A stretch of DNA of 55,339 bases from NCBI GenBank assembly GCA_947588745.1, contig CANPYW010000012.1:1-55339 (forward strand). Direction: 5' to 3'. The notes under the pieces are model-generated. The model had not been told where the DNA came from. It was given only the letters and a program-made list of their open reading frames with translations, and did no database searches. Origin of the DNA: Candidatus Gastranaerophilales bacterium. Its GTDB lineage: Bacteria; Cyanobacteriota; Vampirovibrionia; Gastranaerophilales; Gastranaerophilaceae. The number at the start of each line of letters is the position of its first letter. The stretch's first letter is position 1. Made by a program: the position numbers and the translations under genes. Positions 3,752 through 34,292 of this stretch are shown here, in pieces.

Positions 3752-4885
3752 ATGTTTATAAAAAAATTACAGCTTAAAAATTTTAGAAATTATACCGACG
3801 CAGATATTGAATTTTCCAAAAAGAAAATTCTTTTTATAGGTAAAAATGCTCAAGGTAAAACAAATTTGCTTGAAGCTGTTTTTTATTTATCATCGCTCAA
3901 TTCTTTCAGAGCAAAATCTGATTTTGAGCTTATTAAGTGGAATGAAGAATTTTGCAATATTAAAGCCGAAATAAACAAGTATGACATTAATTCGGAATTA
4001 GAAATTAATATTCCGCTTCAAGGCAGAAAAAAGTTAAAAGTTAACGGTATTAATAAAAGTAAATTTTCGGAATTTATCAGTAATATTTCAACTGTTTGTT
4101 TTACAACAAACGATTTACTGCTTTTAAGGGGAACACCGGACGACAGGCGTAAATGGCTTGATTTGGCTATCTGTCAAATTTTCCCTTCCTATATCGAACG
4201 TTTAAATAAATATAACAAAATAAAAACACAAAAAAATAACTACTTAAAAACACTTAAGGGGAATATACAATCAGACCTTTCGTTACTTGATGTTTGGAAT
4301 GAGCAGCTTGCAATTACGGGAAGTAACATTACCTATATAAGAATTAATTTTTTACACGAATTACTTAAAATAGCAAAAGATAAGCATCAAAAAATTTCAT
4401 CGGACGAAATTTTTACCATGAATTATAATTCCTCATTTCTAAATGATATTGAGCTTGAGAGCAAATATCCCAATACTATTGAATACATTCTTGAACAATT
4501 TACGTTACAACTTCAAGAAAAGAAACAAGATGAAATTATAAGAGCTCAATCCCTTACAGGCCCGCACAGAGATGACATTACCTATTTTATCAACAGCATT
4601 GAAGCAAAAAAATATGCTTCACAAGGGCAGCAAAGAACGATTGTTTTGGCGTTAAAGCTCGCAGAGCTTCAATTAATAAAAGAAAAAATCAATACCAATG
4701 CAATTTTGCTTTTGGATGATGTTCTTGCAGAACTTGATGATATCAGACAGAATTACCTTCTGGATGCAATTGGCGATGATACTCAAACCATCATCACCTC
4801 GGTTGATACTCTGCATTTTCAACATGAATATCTAAAAGACGTTGAAATTTTTGAAATTAAGGATAATATCATTATTAAAAATTAA
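3752..4885 (+). CDS. recF: DNA replication and repair protein RecF
   Basis: A 377-residue SMC-like ATPase that loads RecA at single-strand gaps with RecO and RecR. The Walker A loop GKNAQGKTNLLE is at 30-41. The C-terminal half shows TGPHRDD, the ABC signature region SQGQQRTIVLALKLAE, and Walker B LLLDDVLAELDD. The frame extends 29 codons upstream, but the family starts at MFIKKLQLKNFRNY, and a TATAAT box ends 6 nt before this ATG, so 3752 is chosen. Unlike many bacteria, recF is not beside dnaA, dnaN or gyrB; dnaA lies about 36 kb away in this window. Confidence 0.95.
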   Translation: MFIKKLQLKNFRNYTDADIEFSKKKILFIGKNAQGKTNLLEAVFYLSSLNSFRAKSDFELIKWNEEFCNIKAEINKYDINSELEINIPLQGRKKLKVNGINKSKFSEFISNISTVCFTTNDLLLLRGTPDDRRKWLDLAICQIFPSYIERLNKYNKIKTQKNNYLKTLKGNIQSDLSLLDVWNEQLAITGSNITYIRINFLHELLKIAKDKHQKISSDEIFTMNYNSSFLNDIELESKYPNTIEYILEQFTLQLQEKKQDEIIRAQSLTGPHRDDITYFINSIEAKKYASQGQQRTIVLALKLAELQLIKEKINTNAILLLDDVLAELDDIRQNYLLDAIGDDTQTIITSVDTLHFQHEYLKDVEIFEIKDNIIIKN

Positions 4886-4953
4886 TTTTCTTATTATCAG
4901 TTTATCTAAAAGTTCACTATATGCAATTACAGTAATTTATATACATTATCATA

Positions 4954-5145
4954 TTAGCAATATGTTCCACAAGGTACACACTTTGGAGTATAATATTGCG
5001 GAGGATGAACAGGACAAGAACATCCGTAATTACATTTTGCGATTAAAACACTTTCACCGCTTTCAACCATATCAGAATATAATGATAATATTTCATCATC
5101 CGTCAGACCATCCAAAGCATTTTCATCTAAATTAATTTCGTCCAA
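4954..5145 (-). CDS. Cys-rich small peptide, candidate RiPP precursor
   Basis: A 63-residue peptide starting at TTG with a strong SD, AAGGAG, about 6 nt upstream. It divides naturally into an acidic helical leader-like part (residues 1-36, containing LDGLTDDEILSLYSDMVE, no positive charge) and a core-like tail (37-63) with six Cys and several Pro, Tyr and Gly. The tail begins KCNYGCSCPVHPP and ends CVPCGTYC. This architecture matches ribosomally made, modified peptides; a small metal-binding protein is the alternative. It lies 14 nt downstream of an ATP-grasp gene on the same strand. I do not recognise the precursor family. No transporter or protease gene is adjacent. Confidence 0.65.
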   Translation of the reverse strand: MDEINLDENALDGLTDDEILSLYSDMVESGESVLIAKCNYGCSCPVHPPQYYTPKCVPCGTYC

Positions 5146-5159
5146 TGTATTCTCCTTGC

Positions 5160-5984
5160 TTAAATTTTAAGCATTTTTCCAAGTTTCAAATTCACATTTT
5201 TATCCATCTTGCAATAGCCCGAAAAAGGCGTAAATGTCATTTCATTAAAATATACTTTTTGGTTATATAATAACCAATCAACTCTTACTAATTTAAAACC
5301 ATTCGCAAGTATTTTCGATTTTTCTACAGCTTCTTTTAATATTTCTTGAGCAGGTTCATATTTTTTACTGTACATTAAGTTGAATACTATATCGCTTTCA
5401 CTGTAATCTTCATTATATACAGAGCATAAGGGAGGCAGAGAATAAACTATTTTTTGATATATCTTTGGCTTGCCGTTAAAACAATATATTTCATATTCTA
5501 TAGGATTTACATCGTCTATCAATAAGGGTTCTATTAATATTTGAGGCTCAATATCCTTATACTGCATTTCAAAACCTGCATAAGGGAAAAACGTCTGCTT
5601 CATCCACCCGTCAAATCTCTTTTTTACAACATTTACAACCACTTTATTTTTGATAAAATCGTCTTTATTTTTTATTTTAAAATGCCACTTGCAACCATTA
5701 TTTGCTTTTATCATAAATTTTTGAGGCAGAATGTCAAAAGGAATATCATCAAATTGTTTTCCGACCCACAATACGGGTTTTAAATACTCTTCTCCGATTT
5801 TTTCCTTTACCCAATCCCTTACCAACACCTTATCGGTCAATCGTGTTTTTAAAGGTGTACAATCATATATCTTTAACCACTGTATTTTTTCATTAAAAGT
5901 TTTTGGATTTCTTAAATGCAAATCTTCATTTGTCATCAGTTTGAAAAACTTTTTTAAATATTGAGGATACTCTTTTTCATCCAA
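5160..5984 (-). CDS. TupA-like ATP-grasp protein, 5' end out of frame
   Basis: A 274-residue frame matching the ATP-grasp_TupA family (teichuronopeptide/polysaccharide-associated amide ligases). Visible blocks: LRNPKTFNEKIQWLKIYD (family N-terminal signature), KANNGCKWH, ILIEPLL, EYEIYCFNGKPK, VRVDWLLYNQKVYFNEMTFTPFSGY with the metal-binding E/N region. The only start in this frame is a TTG at 5984 without an SD. The natural start is the ATG at 6067, which has GGAAG 4-5 nt upstream, but a run of ten G (6010-6019) puts it in another frame and it stops after 25 codons. One extra G gives a continuous protein of about 302 residues. The gene is therefore probably phase-variable and off in this sequence, or the run is miscounted. 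It is followed by the Cys-rich peptide. Confidence 0.75.
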   Translation of the reverse strand: MDEKEYPQYLKKFFKLMTNEDLHLRNPKTFNEKIQWLKIYDCTPLKTRLTDKVLVRDWVKEKIGEEYLKPVLWVGKQFDDIPFDILPQKFMIKANNGCKWHFKIKNKDDFIKNKVVVNVVKKRFDGWMKQTFFPYAGFEMQYKDIEPQILIEPLLIDDVNPIEYEIYCFNGKPKIYQKIVYSLPPLCSVYNEDYSESDIVFNLMYSKKYEPAQEILKEAVEKSKILANGFKLVRVDWLLYNQKVYFNEMTFTPFSGYCKMDKNVNLKLGKMLKI

Positions 5985-6067
5985 GTTTACTATAAAATCG
6001 TATTCATACGGGGGGGGGGAGGTGACAATACCTCAGGTTTAAATAATTTTTTGAATAAATTGTGCAT
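5985..6067 (-). other. Out-of-frame 5' end of the ATP-grasp gene
   Basis: The ATG at 6067 (SD GGAAG; possible -10 TATACT further upstream) encodes MHNLFKKLFKPEVLSPPPP, then RMNTIL and a stop at the present tract length. With 11 or 8 G it would continue as PPPPPYEYDFIVNLDEKEY into the downstream gene. Confidence 0.65.
6010..6019. repeat. Poly-G tract (10 G on plus strand)
   Basis: A mononucleotide run in an AT-rich genome, lying inside the 5' coding part of the ATP-grasp gene (read as C on the coding strand). Such tracts change length by slipped-strand mispairing and act as on/off switches in contingency genes. Confidence 0.85.
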
Positions 6068-6166
6068 ATTACTTCCAAATATTACAATGGTAGTATAACG
6101 TGTTATTTTTGGATTTAATACACATAATATTTTTTTTGTAAAATTTATTTACATAAGTTTTATAAA

Positions 6167-6195
6167 TAAAAAATGGAGAGCTTAAAGCTCTCCAT
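6167..6195 (-). terminator. Strong terminator after rplR
   Basis: ATGGAGAGCT and AGCTCTCCAT (6173-6182 / 6186-6195) form a perfect 10-bp stem with a 3-nt loop. On the minus strand it is followed by a run of T. It ends the ribosomal operon 22 nt past the rplR stop. Confidence 0.9.
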
Positions 6196-6217
6196 GCTTA
6201 AACACTAATTAAAAAAA

Positions 6218-6586
6218 CTAGAAATTAAGTCCGGCTTCTCTTGCAGCTTCTGCTAATGCAGCAACACGTCCGTGGTATAAAAAACCGCCTCTGTCAAAAA
6301 CTACGTCTTTTATTCCTGCCGCTAATGCCTTCTTCGCAATAGCTTCACCTACAGCTTTTGCACTTTCAACATTTCCGCCGTGAGCTAATTTTTCTCTCAT
6401 ATCTTTATCTATGGATGAAGATGATACAAGAGTAACACCTTTAACATCATCTATAATTTGAGCATAAATATGCTTTGTGCTTCTGTATACCGCTAATCTC
6501 GGAGCCTCGGAAGTACCCGATAATTTTGCTCTTAATCTTTGATGACGCTTTTGTGTAGCTTGTTTTTTATTTGTTTGTTTAATCAT
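6218..6586 (-). CDS. rplR: 50S ribosomal protein L18
   Basis: About 122 residues. L18 binds 5S rRNA in the central protuberance. Recognisable segments are [24 protein letters not shown] and the C-terminal [24 protein letters not shown]. The ATG at 6586 follows AAAGGA at suitable distance; a TTG at 6607 is an upstream alternative. This is the last gene of the operon. The genes that normally follow in the spc cluster (rpsE, rpmD, rplO, secY) are absent and a terminator comes next. A 175-nt gap separates it from rplF. Confidence 0.95.
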
Positions 6587-6761
6587 TTTATTTTTCCTTT
6601 CACCCAAACCTTCTTATTTTCATAAGGGTTTATTCTGGCATGTTTCTTATTTACATATCTTAAGTCTTGAAATTCTTTCCCGCTATCACCGCAGGCAAGT
6701 GCATCTTTTATTTTTACCCGCCCCGGTTCTCGTTCACAAGCTTTACTTTGAATGAATTTCT
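6587..6761 (-). other. Unusual 175-nt gap between rplF and rplR
   Basis: Other ribosomal genes here are mostly spaced by under 20 nt. On the coding strand this gap contains a GC-richer patch (about 6670-6730) with a hairpin, CTTgCCTGC / GCGGGaAAG. It also has one frame open across nearly its whole length, containing ALACGDSGKEFQDLRYVNKK and ending near the rplR start, but with no ATG, GTG or TTG at its beginning. It may be an RNA regulatory element, a decayed small gene, or chance. Confidence 0.45.
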
Positions 6762-7301
6762 CTATTTCTTACCTGTCTTACCTGCTTTTCTTCTGATGTA
6801 TTCGCCCTCATATTTTACACCCTTGCCTTTATATACTTCAGGCGGACGTTTGCTTCTGATTAAAGCGGCAACATCTCCGACGGTTTGCTTATTTGCTCCG
6901 GATACCTTTATCTTTGTGTTTTGATCTACAACGATTTTAATTCCTTCCGGAGGAACTATATTAATAGGATGTGAATATCCTAACGCCAAGTTCAATGTAT
7001 TACCCTGCATGGAAGCACGATAACCTACACCAACGATTTCCAAACTCTTTGAAAATCCTGTCTTTACACCGTTTATCGTATTTGCAACCAATGTTCTTGA
7101 TAAACCATGTAACGAACGTGACTTTCTTTCGTCGTTTTCTCTCGTTAATACTACTTTATTTTCATTCTTTTCTACTTTTATTTCGGAACGTATTGTTACT
7201 GATTCCGTACCCAAAGGCCCTTTTGCCGTAACTGTTTGTCCGTCTATTGTTACTTCAACACCATCGGGTATAACTATTGGTAATTTACCTATACGTGACA
7301 T
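6762..7301 (-). CDS. rplF: 50S ribosomal protein L6
   Basis: 179 residues, the standard length. MSRIGKLPIVIPDGVEVTI is the typical N-terminus and RSKRPPEVYKGKGVKYEGE the conserved C-terminal rRNA-binding motif. L6 sits near the factor-binding site of the large subunit. It is part of the minus-strand ribosomal operon, after rpsH. Confidence 0.97.
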   Translation of the reverse strand: MSRIGKLPIVIPDGVEVTIDGQTVTAKGPLGTESVTIRSEIKVEKNENKVVLTRENDERKSRSLHGLSRTLVANTINGVKTGFSKSLEIVGVGYRASMQGNTLNLALGYSHPINIVPPEGIKIVVDQNTKIKVSGANKQTVGDVAALIRSKRPPEVYKGKGVKYEGEYIRRKAGKTGKK

Positions 7302-7361: not shown

Positions 7362-7763
7362 CTACCATACATAACAAAGGACTTCACCACCGACGTTCTC
7401 TTTTCTTGCACGTCTGTCCGTTAATAATCCTTTACTTGTTGATACTATTGCTATACCCATACCGCCCAATACTTGCGGCATATTCTTTGCTTTACAATAA
7501 CTTCTTAAACCCGGCTTCGATACTCTCTTTAAGTTCGATATTACAGGCTTTGATTTTTCATCATACTTTAATGTTATCTTTAATGTCTTAAAACTGCTGT
7601 TTTCTTTTTGGAAAACATTATAGTCCTCAACATATCCTTCTGATTTTAATAATTTGGCTAACTCTATCTTTAGCTTTGAACAAGGCATATCTACTTCTTT
7701 TAATGACACCATGTTCGCATTTCTTATTCTTGTCAGCATATCTGCTATCGGATCTGTATTCAT
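7362..7763 (-). CDS. rpsH: 30S ribosomal protein S8
   Basis: 133 residues, standard length. The start MNTDPIADMLTRIRNA and the C-terminal GIAIVSTSKGLLTDRRARKE are diagnostic. S8 is a primary binder of 16S rRNA and in E. coli is the repressor of the spc operon. The gap to the upstream rpsN gene (109 nt) is longer than usual in this operon. Confidence 0.97.
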   Translation of the reverse strand: MNTDPIADMLTRIRNANMVSLKEVDMPCSKLKIELAKLLKSEGYVEDYNVFQKENSSFKTLKITLKYDEKSKPVISNLKRVSKPGLRSYCKAKNMPQVLGGMGIAIVSTSKGLLTDRRARKENVGGEVLCYVW

Positions 7764-7872
7764 TATCTTTTTCCTTTACTTTTTAAACGGATTTACCGCT
7801 AACTACTTACTAAAATTTATCTAGCAGTATAGAAAAGTCTTTCGGATTGAATTCTCTCTAAGGATATATTCA

Positions 7873-8079
7873 CTACCAACTTGCTTTTACTACACCGGGC
7901 AATAAACCTTGATGAGCCATTTTTCTTAAGCACATTCTGCAAATACCAAAATCTCTGTGAAATCCGTGAGGTCTACCGCATATCGAACATCTGTTATGCA
8001 ATCTTACTCTCGGATACTTCCCTTTTGCCGCTAATGCTTCTCTCTTCAGCTCTTTGTCTATCATTGATTTCTTAGCCAC
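7873..8079 (-). CDS. rpsZ: 30S ribosomal protein S14, zinc type
   Basis: 68 residues, slightly longer than the usual 61-residue zinc form. C31-x2-C34 and C47-x2-C50 in [12 protein letters not shown]...CRMC bind a zinc ion. This is the C+ paralogue found in Gram-positives and many deep lineages rather than the 100-residue E. coli form. It lies between rplE and rpsH as in the canonical spc order. Confidence 0.96.
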
Positions 8080-8096
8080 GTTATATACTCCTTTTG

Positions 8097-8648
8097 TTAT
8101 TTTTTAAATGGCATTCCAAGTGCTTTTAATAATGCTCTCGCTTCTTCATCGGTATTTGCGGTTGTTATTATTGATACGTTCATACCATGCACCGCATCCA
8201 ATTCATCGTACGAAATTTCAGGGAATAATGATTGCTCCTTTAAGCCTAATGTATAGTTTCCTCTGCCGTCAAAACTCTTTGAGCTTACACCTCTAAAGTC
8301 CCTTATTCTCGGTAATACTACACATATTAACTTTTGAAGAAAATCATACATTCTCTCCCCTCTTAACGTTACCATAGCACCTACAGGCATGCCCTCTCTT
8401 AATTTAAAAGCAGCTATAGATTTCTTAGCCTTTGTAGATAATGCTTTCTGACCTGCAATCTTTGTAAGCTGTTTTACTATGGATTCCGCTAATTTGGAAT
8501 TATGACATGCTTCACCAACCCCCATATTTAAAACAATTTTGCTTAATTTTGGAATTTGATGAACATTTTCATATTTGAATTCTTCTTGAAGTGCTTTTAC
8601 CACTTCTTCTTTATATTTATCTCTTAAACTCTTTGTTACTACTGACAT
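8097..8648 (-). CDS. rplE: 50S ribosomal protein L5
   Basis: 183 residues. [18 protein letters not shown], the [15 protein letters not shown] block and [20 protein letters not shown] are typical. L5 binds 5S rRNA and contacts the P-site tRNA. The SD ACGGAGGG is strong. The 138-nt gap upstream contains two hairpins. Confidence 0.97.
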
Positions 8649-30006: not shown

Positions 30007-32658
30007 ATGCAATATAATCCTGAAGAGTTTGATGAAATATTAAATATTTTTAATTCCGAGAGTGAAGAAATTATTCAAGAACTTAATGATAATTTCATGG
30101 CACTTGAAAAAGATGTAAACGATAAAACACCTATAAAAAGATTGCTCCAATTATCTCACTCTTTAAAAGGCTCTGCAAGAATGCTGGGGTTTAACAGCAT
30201 TCAAAATCTTGCACATAAACTTGAAGATATTCTTTCTTACTGGTCAAAAGAAAATATTAAAATAAATAAACTAGCTTTCACAACGATTTATGAAACCTGT
30301 GATTATTTAAGCAAATTAATTAATAAATGTGTACAAGCCAAAAACAATTATGAGGATGAAAGAAATAATACTCAATTAAACAAGCTTGATGAGATTTTAT
30401 CATCCAATGATGATACAAATCAAGCTCAGAAAGAGAGTAATAATATCAACTATTTAAAAACAAAGAACATGGATATAAACGCTATTGTTCTTGAACTTAT
30501 GTTAGTTATAGAAAAAGATGATGATGATGTATTATCTGTTTTAACCGATAATCTTAAAGAACTTGAAAGTATATTTTCGAAAACAAACTTTTTAAGTATT
30601 AAAAACGAACTAGCTCTTCTAATAAAAAACTTAAGTGAAGAAAATAGCGAAGAAAATAAACTGGAATATTTAAAAGAAAACATTCCAAAATTAAGAAACA
30701 ATATTTATAATCTTTTAAAAACTTTCAATATCAAATCTTCAAATAAAAATAATGCAAAAACAAAAAACCAGAAGCAAGAGTCAGTTCAAAAGCCTGAAAA
30801 ACAAATAAATCCGGATGATGAACTCATCAAAAAATTCGATTTTGCAATAGAAAATCTCAAAAAAACTAAATACGATATTTCATACGCAGATGAAATCACA
30901 GGATTTCTTCAAACCATTAATCCGCAAACGGAACACGAAAAAAATATATTACAAAAGACAATTAATATACTTAATTTATACAAAGATAAAAACATACAGC
31001 TAAACAATGACTGTTATCTCGTAATTTTGCAATGCATTTATACTCTCAAACGAATATACTTAAAAGACGAGAACTTAAACATTAATAATATTGATTTTCT
31101 CATGCAGCGATTAAACGTTGTAGAAGATATGTTTAATATTATGAATAATGAAAAAGCACAAGTGACTGTCAATGAAGAAAAAAATGTAATCAAACCCGAT
31201 AGTTTTTCTGATTTAAAGAAAAATTTAACAGGCATAGATTTTCAGGAAATAAAAACACTGCGTGTTGATACATATAAGCTGGATAATTTAATTTCTCAAA
31301 CGGGAGAATTATTAATAAACGGCATTAAAACCAAAAATCATCTGCTGGAATTATCTAAAATTAATACTGAACTAATTAAATTCAGCGGAGAAAATAAAAA
31401 AATATTGAATTATTTAAAATATCTGGAAAAAAAAGGATTTTTTACTCAAAGTGCAGATGATAACATTACGGCATTCTATAAAAAAGTTCAAAGCTTCTTT
31501 AGTGAAAATTCGATAATCATACATGAAGTAAATAAAAAGGTAAACAACCTTTATAATACAATGTTTACCGATGATAACAAACTATGCCAGAATACAATGG
31601 AAATAGATGTTTTAGCAAAAGGAATAAGAGTGCTGCCGCTGGCAACAATATTTCATTTATTCCCACGCATGGTAAGAGATATAGCCCAAGAGAACAACAA
31701 ACAAATTAACTTTATAGTTACAGGAAGCGATACTACCATTGATAAAAAATTAATGGAAGAAATAAAAGTACCATTAATCCATTTGTTAAGAAATGCGGTT
31801 TCTCATGGTATAGAATTGCCGGAAGAACGTATAAAGAAACATAAAGATGCAATGGGTACAATAAAACTTTCGGCTAAACAAGAAGAAAATTATGTAATTC
31901 TGACAATAGAAGATGACGGCTTTGGGATAGATATAGAGAAAGTAAAAAAGATTTCCTTACAAAAAGGAATATTAACAAAAGAAGAACTTGAAAATATCGA
32001 TAACGAACACCTTGTAAAACTGTTATTTTTACCCGGATTTTCGACTTCGGAGTCAATTGATGAAATATCAGGTCGAGGCGTAGGATTAGACGTTGTAAAA
32101 ACGAAAATACACAATCTAAACGGCGAAATATTTATTGATTCAGCCATAAATCAAGGCTGTAAAGTAACGATAAAGCTTCCTTTATCTATGTCTACAATAA
32201 AAACATTCATCTTGCTTATAGGCAATCAAAAATATGCAATGCCGATTAATACAATAAAATATGTAAAAACTATAAACAAAAATGAGATATATAAAAAAGA
32301 CAATCAACAATGCATAATATACAATTCTCATTCAATCCCCATATTTTCATTGTCCGAAATATTAGAAAATAATACACAGCAAAAGAATAACAGTGATATA
32401 TTAACAATTGTAATAATAGAAATAAGAGGACAAGAAGCCGCATTTATGGTGGACGGTTTAATTAACGATCAGGAAGTTTTCCATAAAAAACTGGTAGCCC
32501 CTATAATAAAAATAAAAAATATAAGCGGATTTACAACACTATCAAACGGCGAAATTTGTTTAATTTTAAACCCTTACGAATTAATGAAAAACTACATTCA
32601 GGATAAATATATTAATAATGTGGTAACAAAGTTAATATCCACCGATAAAATTGAATAA
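30007..32658 (+). CDS. cheA: Chemotaxis-type histidine kinase CheA
   Basis: 883 residues. The Hpt domain (about 1-105) contains the phospho-acceptor H51 in LSHSLKGSARMLGF. A long Lys/Asn-rich stretch (105-405) replaces a recognisable P2 domain. Then come the dimerisation helices (about 415-545), the ATPase (HLLRNAVSHGIELPEER at about 590, DDGFGID about 635, GRGVGLDVVK about 688) and a C-terminal CheW-like domain (about 740-875). Kinase residues look intact. No CheY, CheR, CheB or flagellar genes are nearby, so the output could be something other than flagellar motion, such as type IV pili. Confidence 0.93.
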   Translation: MQYNPEEFDEILNIFNSESEEIIQELNDNFMALEKDVNDKTPIKRLLQLSHSLKGSARMLGFNSIQNLAHKLEDILSYWSKENIKINKLAFTTIYETCDYLSKLINKCVQAKNNYEDERNNTQLNKLDEILSSNDDTNQAQKESNNINYLKTKNMDINAIVLELMLVIEKDDDDVLSVLTDNLKELESIFSKTNFLSIKNELALLIKNLSEENSEENKLEYLKENIPKLRNNIYNLLKTFNIKSSNKNNAKTKNQKQESVQKPEKQINPDDELIKKFDFAIENLKKTKYDISYADEITGFLQTINPQTEHEKNILQKTINILNLYKDKNIQLNNDCYLVILQCIYTLKRIYLKDENLNINNIDFLMQRLNVVEDMFNIMNNEKAQVTVNEEKNVIKPDSFSDLKKNLTGIDFQEIKTLRVDTYKLDNLISQTGELLINGIKTKNHLLELSKINTELIKFSGENKKILNYLKYLEKKGFFTQSADDNITAFYKKVQSFFSENSIIIHEVNKKVNNLYNTMFTDDNKLCQNTMEIDVLAKGIRVLPLATIFHLFPRMVRDIAQENNKQINFIVTGSDTTIDKKLMEEIKVPLIHLLRNAVSHGIELPEERIKKHKDAMGTIKLSAKQEENYVILTIEDDGFGIDIEKVKKISLQKGILTKEELENIDNEHLVKLLFLPGFSTSESIDEISGRGVGLDVVKTKIHNLNGEIFIDSAINQGCKVTIKLPLSMSTIKTFILLIGNQKYAMPINTIKYVKTINKNEIYKKDNQQCIIYNSHSIPIFSLSEILENNTQQKNNSDILTIVIIEIRGQEAAFMVDGLINDQEVFHKKLVAPIIKIKNISGFTTLSNGEICLILNPYELMKNYIQDKYINNVVTKLISTDKIE

Positions 32659-32692: not shown

Positions 32693-32702
32693 GGGGGGGG
32701 GG
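32693..32702. repeat. Second poly-G tract (10 G)
   Basis: A run of ten G lies 34 nt after the cheA stop, followed by a G/A-rich stretch with repeated TGGGAAA-like units (to about 32750). It is intergenic: no frame of useful length begins at or crosses it. The strong purine/pyrimidine strand bias is unlike the surrounding DNA. Confidence 0.8.
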
Positions 32703-32995: not shown

Positions 32996-34237
32996 TTATT
33001 TTTTTTCATTATACGATTTAATTAACTCGATTGCTTTTTTCATTTGTTCATCATTGTTAAATGAAAAAGGCAAAATGAAATCGGGAATAAGTCCCTTCTT
33101 ATGGATATCATAACCGTTTGGTAAAATATATTTATCTGTAGTCAAAATTAAACCCGTTTGATTATATAGCGGAATAATTTGCTGAATAGAATTTTTTCCG
33201 TAAGAATTTTCACCGACGAGAACAGCATTCAAATTATCTCTTAAAATTCCCGCAAAAATTTCTGCCGCACTTGCAGTATATTTGTTTATGAGAATAACAA
33301 TCGGTTTATCTTTAAATATTTTTCCGTTTTCTGCATAAATTTGATATTTTTTATTATCTCTTGCTTCAATGCTTATTAATTCTTTACCATCCACCATAAA
33401 ATCAGCCATTTGAATTGCATTTGCGAGGATACCGCCATAGTTATTTCTCAAATCAATAATTAAACCGGAGGTATCGTTGGTTTTTAAAATAATATCCTTA
33501 AAGTCATCAACGGCTTTTTCACCCATGATATTATAAAGCGAAATTATACCTATATTATCTTTTGTAATATCATAGTACATTGTTTTAATATAAATTTCTT
33601 CTTTTGTTAACTCTTTTTCGATTAACTTATCATCTCTTTTAATAACAATTTTAACTTTATCGGTTGTACCGTTTACGACGGAGTCAATAAGTTCATCTAT
33701 ATCGCTGCTGTCGGCATGTTTTCCGTTAAGACTTACAATAGTATCACCCGATAAAATATTTGCAGCCTTTGCGGGCGAATTATCAAGAACATGATTTACT
33801 ACGATTTTATCACCCGTTCTGTCGAATAAAAGCCCCACACCCGTAATTTTAGAATCGACAATGACTTTTCGCTTTGAATAACTGCTTGATTTTAAAAACT
33901 TTGTATACGGATCATTAAGACTTGCAAGCATGGTATTAATGGCAATATAAGCATCATCAAGCGTCTTAATTTGTTTAAAATACCTGTGTTTCCAATAAGT
34001 CCATGTTTGATTGTTCAAACTTTTATCAACATAATAGTTTCTTGTAATTCGCCAAACGTTAACAAATAAACGTTTAGGCGAAATATTTTGAACTGCGGTG
34101 ATTTTTTGAAAATATTTATCCAAAAAATCAAATTTGAAATATAATTTCGGTTCTAAAAACAAATCAGCCGAAATTATAATAAATAGAGTTACAATAGAAT
34201 AAAATACTACTTTTTTTACATTAATATCATTGTTCAT
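32996..34237 (-). CDS. C-terminal processing protease (S41, CtpA family)
   Basis: About 413 residues. One N-terminal membrane segment (about 11-29) exports or anchors the protein to the envelope. A PDZ domain (about 120-200, ITGVGLLFD...VLDNSPAKAANILSGDTIVSLNG) precedes the S41 peptidase core. The Ser nucleophile is in NKYTASAAEI (S323) and the general-base Lys in NSYGKNSIQQI (K348). Such proteases trim or degrade periplasmic proteins by their C-termini. A start at 34246 is possible. Confidence 0.9.
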   Translation of the reverse strand: MNNDINVKKVVFYSIVTLFIIISADLFLEPKLYFKFDFLDKYFQKITAVQNISPKRLFVNVWRITRNYYVDKSLNNQTWTYWKHRYFKQIKTLDDAYIAINTMLASLNDPYTKFLKSSSYSKRKVIVDSKITGVGLLFDRTGDKIVVNHVLDNSPAKAANILSGDTIVSLNGKHADSSDIDELIDSVVNGTTDKVKIVIKRDDKLIEKELTKEEIYIKTMYYDITKDNIGIISLYNIMGEKAVDDFKDIILKTNDTSGLIIDLRNNYGGILANAIQMADFMVDGKELISIEARDNKKYQIYAENGKIFKDKPIVILINKYTASAAEIFAGILRDNLNAVLVGENSYGKNSIQQIIPLYNQTGLILTTDKYILPNGYDIHKKGLIPDFILPFSFNNDEQMKKAIELIKSYNEKK

Positions 34238-34292
34238 AGTATACATCCAGGTTATATTTTATACTCTTTCCATTTTAAAAACAATTATTTTT

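Follow-up and report, generated by a model that had tools for sequence, protein, structure and literature searches.

Directly behind a gene for a TupA-like ATP-grasp ligase in the window, i.e. the whole stretch of 55,339 nucleotides analysed here, lies an ORF for a short Cys-rich peptide, and the locus raises the question whether this peptide is a precursor on which the ligase acts. The first-pass annotation had answered with a possible new ATP-grasp-modified RiPP, the enzyme of which would be produced in a phase-variable manner. Candidatus Gastranaerophilales, the group to which the DNA is assigned, are gut relatives of cyanobacteria and are known here from metagenome assemblies alone.

The cassette in the rplR-recF interval

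The TTG-started peptide of 63 residues, described earlier as having a Shine-Dalgarno sequence and following the ATP-grasp gene after 14 nt, was recovered as such, with both ORFs on the minus strand (Table 1). Its leader half is acidic and indeed free of basic residues (zero Lys, Arg and His in residues 1–36). The tail had been reported to contain six Cys, five Pro and three Tyr, of which the Cys and Pro counts stand but the Tyr count is four; the core holds zero Asp/Glu, the last Glu being residue 31, in the leader. Searches of Pfam, NCBIfam and PHROGs with the window peptide gave zero matches, and nine other peptides of the family described below gave at most sub-threshold matches in Pfam, e.g. 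to MiAMP1 (E 0.009).

Table 1. Coordinates of the cassette and its surroundings in the window.
Feature	Position	Strand	Remark
Cys-rich precursor-like peptide, 63 aa	4954..5145	-	TTG start; leader relatives found behind TupA genes
Leader half of the peptide, residues 1-36	5038..5145	-	acidic, L-T-D-D-E-I-x-x-L-Y-x-D; from alignments and leader profile
Variable core of the peptide, residues 37-63	4957..5037	-	boundary is a projection from the leader profile
Shine-Dalgarno-like AAGGAG of the peptide	5152..5157	-	six bases 5' of the TTG start
ATP-grasp_TupA-like ligase, 274 aa	5160..5984	-	TTG start as listed; PF14305 E 1.6e-24
Short ATG-started frame entering the poly-C tract	5990..6067	-	off the TupA register in the assembly
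C10 run (G10 on +), candidate tract for phase variation	6010..6019	-	5' of the TupA TTG start
recF-rplR interval with the cassette	4886..6217	-	recF directly after rplR in 10/30 same-genus loci
rplR-like gene	6218-6607	-	upstream of the TupA gene
recF-like gene	3752-4885	+	closes the interval beyond the peptide

The ligase had been called TupA-like, and its match to PF14305 bears this out with 87.2 bits against a curated cut-off of 25; at E<=1 the only other Pfam match was one sub-threshold DUF, and a solved structure related by sequence was not found at the same limit. When aligning the 10 TupA paralogs of the genome from which the window comes (own genome) four residues were invariant, K93, E152, D236 and E248, and across 35 TupA sequences the same was seen for K119, E178, D264 and E276 (first-row numbering); we take the invariant Lys/Glu/Asp/Glu to be candidate ATP/Mg residues. 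Among nine chosen TupA pairs dN/dS was 0.08–0.31 in eight and saturated in one, two of the eight unsaturated comparisons having a dS above 2.7, near saturation; the window gene gave 0.08 against L184 with a dS near saturation, and a saturated value against L147. Judged by these ratios, TupA is under purifying selection.

The C10 tract, a candidate element for the proposed phase variation, is situated just outside the stretch from the peptide to the ligase start. In this assembly the frame opened by the ATG runs into the tract and stops shortly past it, and the conserved TupA frame continues downstream.

From their sequences we take the flanking genes to be rplR and recF. Among 30 same-genus loci with rplR, the facing recF is immediately next in 10 and a TupA gene stands at the junction in four (G000, G022, G033 and G034), the cassette thus being an optional insertion at this site; the remaining 16 show different genes, a different orientation, or an absence of recF within 1.5 kb. 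A leader was found in the same stretch as the TupA gene in three of the four, and for G022 in locus L102.

Ligase-peptide pairs and their distribution

The own genome (2.0 Mb in 63 contigs) contains 11 matches to PF14305, one of them a fragment. Searching it with the window peptide revealed five more matches, all of them weak (E 8e-5 to 0.33) and located just 3' of a TupA gene. A chance ORF, considered for the window peptide, is excluded since these five matches all lie just downstream of TupA and the leader recurs behind TupA genes in relatives as well. Complete pairs of TupA and peptide number seven (contigs C12, C48, C1, C2, C4, C9 and C11); their acidic leaders can be aligned, and their tails, about 10 to 75 residues long and mostly Cys-rich, are unrelated. 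On C2 the 3' end of TupA and the leader are repeated behind the first peptide with 98.7% identity over 239 nt, and a second, truncated peptide follows (L021:4574-5086), an arrangement that looks like the displacement of an older core.

At the other full copies of the own genome (C21, C2a and C29) a leader peptide of the paired kind was not found; C21 and C2a adjoin radical-SAM genes. On C21 (L018) a 52-aa peptide with a Gly/Cys-rich tail and a non-acidic front, unlike the family leader, is placed between TupA (7535-8452) and a radical-SAM/SPASM gene (5886-7298), while C29 (L026:7874-10990) carries TupA followed by a GARS-type ATP-grasp and then a radical-SAM gene, a different ATP-grasp/radical-SAM cluster.

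For counting, a leader profile was first trained on the pairs of the own genome and next on the matches it had itself found, 92 at the retraining, and was run on 109 neighbourhoods (100 from 13 relatives, nine from the own genome) plus the window. A leader ORF was defined by E<0.01 and a length under 400 aa, and a pair as such an ORF behind a same-strand TupA ORF in the range -120 to +400 nt. The neighbourhoods were picked from leader or TupA matches and the pairing counts are therefore not a random sample; since the copies are related, these counts and those of Cys parity and tracts given below are non-independent. With the window included, 80 of 108 leader ORFs lie behind TupA, nine at contig ends and 19 are solo, and the gap between TupA and leader ORF has a median of 1.5 nt, being <=32 nt in 75 of the 80. 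A Shine-Dalgarno-like motif precedes 90 of the 100 family ORFs with 20 upstream bases. Usually, as far as can be read from the gene order, there would be one ligase per precursor, with the copies scattered around the chromosome.

Sixteen of the 19 solo leader ORFs belong to genomes in which pairs, or a TupA of the kind found in pairs, are present as well (G010, G016, G022, G033 and G034), and the other three to G013, the sole TupA of which the tree places away from the paired sequences. In the G013 ORFs (L134-L137), 214-252 codons long, two or three leader-like repeats are followed by a Cys-containing tail. In G010 seven leader matches without an adjacent TupA (L127-L133) were observed together with one TupA gene elsewhere, and a C/G tract within 200 nt upstream of three of the peptides; one enzyme serving many substrates is a possible plan here. 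Conversely, 26 TupA ORFs are not followed by a leader ORF in the count; they include seven pieces of <170 codons, two ORFs at a contig or region edge, and L139 (3861-4826), which has a leader-like ORF below the threshold 18 nt behind it.

A tree of 123 TupA sequences, 47 of them paired, was used for its broad split only, since a fast method was applied to an alignment with several sparse rows. In the tree the genus goes under the label Candidatus Melainabacteria. It places 62 sequences, many of which are from other phyla, in one group with zero pairs (support 82, and 98 for the branch just inside), with 14 further unpaired sequences interspersed among the paired ones; the pair label changes 13 times on the tree as compared with 37.6 times in shuffles.

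PF14305 was found in 42 of 117 related genomes (own included), and leader matches in 28 at E<=0.1 and in 18 at E<=1e-3, all 18 being of the same genus and all containing PF14305. In 24 of the 42 PF14305 genomes a leader match at E<=1e-3 was lacking, and the 75 genomes without PF14305 gave zero matches at this level and four at E<=0.1 (best G116, 0.007). A wide occurrence of the peptide without the ATP-grasp gene, which according to the first-pass annotation would have spoken against its proposal, was accordingly not what these genomes showed. The leader-richest relatives are G022 with 50 and G009 with 39 matches (E<=0.1), their TupA totals being lower bounds (21 of 77 and 21 of 80 candidates scored); with a wider profile, A5, at least 26 leader matches at E<=1e-3 were obtained in G022 when 27 of 78 candidates had been scored. 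Of the genomes sampled, 11 of 286 from the order and four of 292 from the phylum gave matches with the same profile and limit, all of this genus bar one, chance-like, within a frame of 948 codons. Among the best 80 of at least 527 named TupA relatives, 20 carry the leader, 18 of which are labelled Candidatus Gastranaerophilales and two 'Bacterium' (goat, roe deer). As judged by these profile matches, the family is confined to one genus allied to Candidatus Gastranaerophilales among the genomes searched, with the one chance-like exception.

Phage spread of the cassette was also considered and rejected, as 13 viral TupA loci reached at best 37% identity and contained zero leader peptides at E<=0.1. 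One TupA (L258), filed under Fusobacterium sp. CAG:439, clusters with Gastranaerophilales sequences, and its record is possibly mislabelled.

Leaders, cores and homopolymer tracts

The search for the leader beside TupA genes in related genomes, proposed by the first-pass annotation as a check, revealed constant leaders with variable, mostly Cys-rich cores. In 104 peptides (four ORFs of G013 were left out) the leaders consist of 25% Asp+Glu and 0.8% Cys, and the cores of 10% Cys, 10.6% Gly and 10.1% Tyr over 0-127 residues (median 53). The number of Cys is even in 76 of the 104 cores, zero in five of these, and among the 78 cores with at least four Cys 60 are even and 18 odd. In the 26 alignable core pairs, Cys is retained in 151 of 229 Cys columns, and in seven pairs in all of them, which argues that the cores are not random and that some are common to related species. 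Even counts and kept columns would fit a Cys-Cys scaffold. Some copies may be decayed, since cores of 0-17 aa and cores free of Cys (five of 104) exist. An acceptor motif common to the cores was not seen by eye. A C-terminal Lys was observed in 27 of 100 cores as compared with 2.3% at other core positions, to which lineage effects likely contribute.

The divergence of the two halves was compared in those 43 pairs whose enzyme gene reaches 250 codons or more and whose core has 10 residues or more. For enzymes 70-90% identical (12 comparisons) the leader identity is 55% and the core identity 22%, with shuffled cores at 20.1 +/- 9.5, so that leader and core are not equally conserved, contrary to what would be expected of the simple metal-binding protein that the annotation had named as its counter-case. 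Two copies in G017 share 97.9% identity over 966 nt, from near the TupA start through the intergenic stretch and into the leader, where the DNA identity stops at codon 22.7, the sequences being unrelated beyond. Among 17 similar pairs, several of whose loci recur in the set, the break falls at leader codon 20-34 in 11; in five it comes sooner and in one later.

In 804,858 bases (the 109 neighbourhoods and the whole window) 37 poly-C/G tracts of at least 8 were found, 26 of which fall within the 6.9% of the sequence made up of the surroundings of TupA starts and peptides (nominal binomial 3e-22, with related copies being non-independent). A tract is present in 17 of 61 zones 5' of TupA and absent in 44, and it is present at seven of 28 solo or contig-end peptides and absent at 21. 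It is thus in a minority of copies that tracts occur, positioned at the 5' end of the enzyme gene, upstream of the peptide or within it. Tract lengths and frames are uncertain because the assemblies are draft MAGs. By the criterion of a long homopolymer standing where it could affect expression, such copies would be contingency loci, and the phase variation suspected at the window ligase gains from the family-wide enrichment of poly-C/G. Together, the identity break near the junction and the enriched tracts suggest how a host-associated bacterium with a small genome diversifies its peptide arsenal.

Putative function, partner genes and known systems

To identify genes that might act with the pair, the neighbours of 80 TupA loci (the window left out) were surveyed. 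The commonest are rSAM-A at 21 loci, a U32-like gene at 14, rSAM-B at nine, rSAM-C at five and a regulator at five, presumably of the XRE type, while other recurrent clusters in part reflect a shared chromosomal position, e.g. ribosomal-protein genes. On the same strand and within 300 nt behind the peptide, rSAM-A is found at 14 loci, the U32-like gene at 10 and rSAM-B at five; beside the window peptide both kinds of partner, rSAM and U32-like, are absent. Two rSAM-A proteins that were tested matched HxsC best and also AlbA, SkfB and StsB, all below the curated cut-offs, and MoaA, heme-enzyme and general radical-SAM models score about as well as the peptide maturases. For the U32-like gene, the own genome gives a weak match below the cut-off (E 0.001) and L110 one above it. 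With regard to export, one ABC protein with a C39 domain was identified in the own genome, on another contig beside an outer-membrane-efflux-like ORF and unlinked to the pairs; a G[GAS] near the leader end, as in double-glycine leaders, occurs in 24 of 104 peptides and was not seen at the leader end of the window peptide (SGESVLIAK).

The RiPP reading of the first-pass annotation is supported insofar as a leader/core precursor is paired with the ligase, and the whole looks, from sequence comparison, like an undescribed family of enzyme-modified peptides. We consider it probable that these are phase-variable, RiPP-like cassettes, present in multiple copies and making secreted, Cys-scaffolded peptides. 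That they form a new class of RiPPs relying on ATP-grasp ligases of the TupA type, with cassettes that swap cores near the junction and are switched by slippage, is proposed more tentatively, at a little under even odds. We infer that TupA modifies the peptide and that leader docking, export, disulfides, switching and an ecological role belong to the following sequence of events. The leader would dock the precursor on its cognate TupA enzyme, which would spend ATP on activating a carboxylate and thereby make an amide or ester bond on the precursor. Activation of a carboxylate is expected by analogy with the TupA-like domain of Cj1438 in C. jejuni, which makes an amide bond to glucuronate of the capsule at its C6 carboxylate (PMC11800379, excerpt). 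The window peptide could provide the carboxylate at its C-terminus or through an Asp/Glu of the leader, or it could come from a small acid that is added. A second modification by a radical-SAM or U32-like enzyme would take place in many copies, after which the leader would be removed and the core exported and oxidised to a disulfide-rich mini-peptide. Slippage in the tracts would turn single copies on or off, new cores would be gained through exchange near the leader/core junction, and a likely use would be antagonism or defence against changing partners, be it rival bacteria, phages or the host. If this is true, one gut lineage with a small genome would own a library of up to tens of Cys-scaffolded peptides, combinatorial and phase-variable, made by a ligation chemistry, on the C-terminus or a leader carboxylate, unlike that of graspetides.

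TupA could instead modify or tag the constant leader, e.g. as an export licence, leaving the core as an otherwise unmodified, disulfide-rich secreted mini-protein. The leader is indeed the conserved and Asp/Glu-rich part, with cores at shuffled identity and mostly even in Cys. Known RiPP leaders, however, usually serve as a docking site and are then removed, and the rSAM and U32-like partners suggest modification of the core, so that we hold this to be unlikely.

In a graspetide the ATP-grasp enzyme would join Asp/Glu to Ser/Thr/Lys side chains inside the core. Graspetides likewise have such an enzyme beside a leader/core precursor (PMC8939145, excerpt), and at least one Asp/Glu is present in 88 of 100 cores; in the other 12, the window core among them, there is none. 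Provided that the projected boundary is right, a side-chain link within the window core, where zero Asp/Glu follow residue 31, or within the 11 other Asp/Glu-free cores is impossible, and cyclisation of the graspetide kind is unlikely for the window core. For the 88 cores with Asp/Glu such a link may be possible. In addition, a conserved Thr/Ser...Asp/Glu pattern was not seen by eye, and the leader motif Phhx(1,2)h, which occurs in about half of graspetide precursors, was found in six of 104 leaders, the window leader having no Pro at all. The enzyme here is of PF14305, and in the main text of the graspetide survey 'Tup' is absent (PMC8939145). Because of the Asp/Glu-free cores and the rarity of the leader motif the family, though it has the look of an ATP-grasp RiPP, was not classed as graspetide, an assignment that we regard as quite improbable.

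The peptide could also be a small protein that binds metal or forms disulfides, next to which a TupA working on a surface polymer merely happens to stand. This would agree with the group of 62 pair-free TupA sequences, many of them from other phyla, and with the capsule activity of the characterised relative (PMC11800379, excerpt), but TupA and peptide are found together at many different sites of the chromosome and keep close to each other even though cores are exchanged, and the most recurrent neighbour genes are rSAM and U32-like, which leaves this reading hardly credible.

When comparing the cassettes with known systems, graspetides share with them an ATP-grasp gene next to a short precursor whose leader is conserved and whose core varies, as well as the occurrence of SPASM/radical-SAM partners (excerpt of PMC8939145); they differ from the present family, which has a PF14305 enzyme, mostly Cys-rich cores, scattered copies with usually one enzyme to one precursor, and poly-C/G tracts. 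With the TupA-like ligases, i.e. TupA of teichuronopeptide and the C-terminal domain of Cj1438, the ATP-grasp fold is shared and Cj1438C forms amides (PMC11800379, excerpt), whereas the partner here is a ribosomal peptide and not a glycan, and the paired enzymes stand apart in the tree. The described activity of a TupA-type enzyme being on capsule, a link to ribosomal peptides would be a new enzyme-substrate pairing.

Prochlorosin-type families rely on a single promiscuous ProcM-type enzyme. Here, in contrast, most precursors have their own ATP-grasp, G010 with one TupA and seven leaders being nearer to that plan. A constant leader, variable cores and many precursors per genome are common to both, according to an excerpt on prochlorosins and Nif11-type peptides of picocyanobacteria (PMC10783134). 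With the radical-SAM/SPASM RiPPs of the sactipeptide and ranthipeptide kind the likeness lies in the matches of rSAM-A to peptide-maturase models, below cut-offs, and the difference in the TupA gene that precedes the peptide and in the window copy, which is without rSAM.

In the literature searched no description of a TupA-type ATP-grasp together with a RiPP was found, and TupA together with ATP-grasp appeared in capsule work only. A survey of ATP-grasp amidoligases was reportedly made by Iyer et al. 2009. The terms PF14305 and ATPgrasp_TupA were not found in the literature searched, while teichuronopeptide was, e.g. in the excerpt of PMC4431377; the literature searched contained no work on ATP-grasp in Gastranaerophilales and no RiPP of the present type for the group.

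Contingency loci, e.g. of Campylobacter, resemble the family in having simple repeats near the coding starts or promoters of several paralogs, and differ in that the tracts here are on a putative peptide-maturation system (PMC6321876, excerpt). The sole other poly-C/G tract of at least 8 in the window, G10 at 32693-32702, is intergenic between the ORFs 30007-32658 (+) and 32996-34246 (-) and is possibly a second switch. The former ORF we take to be CheA-like and the latter a CtpA-like protease.
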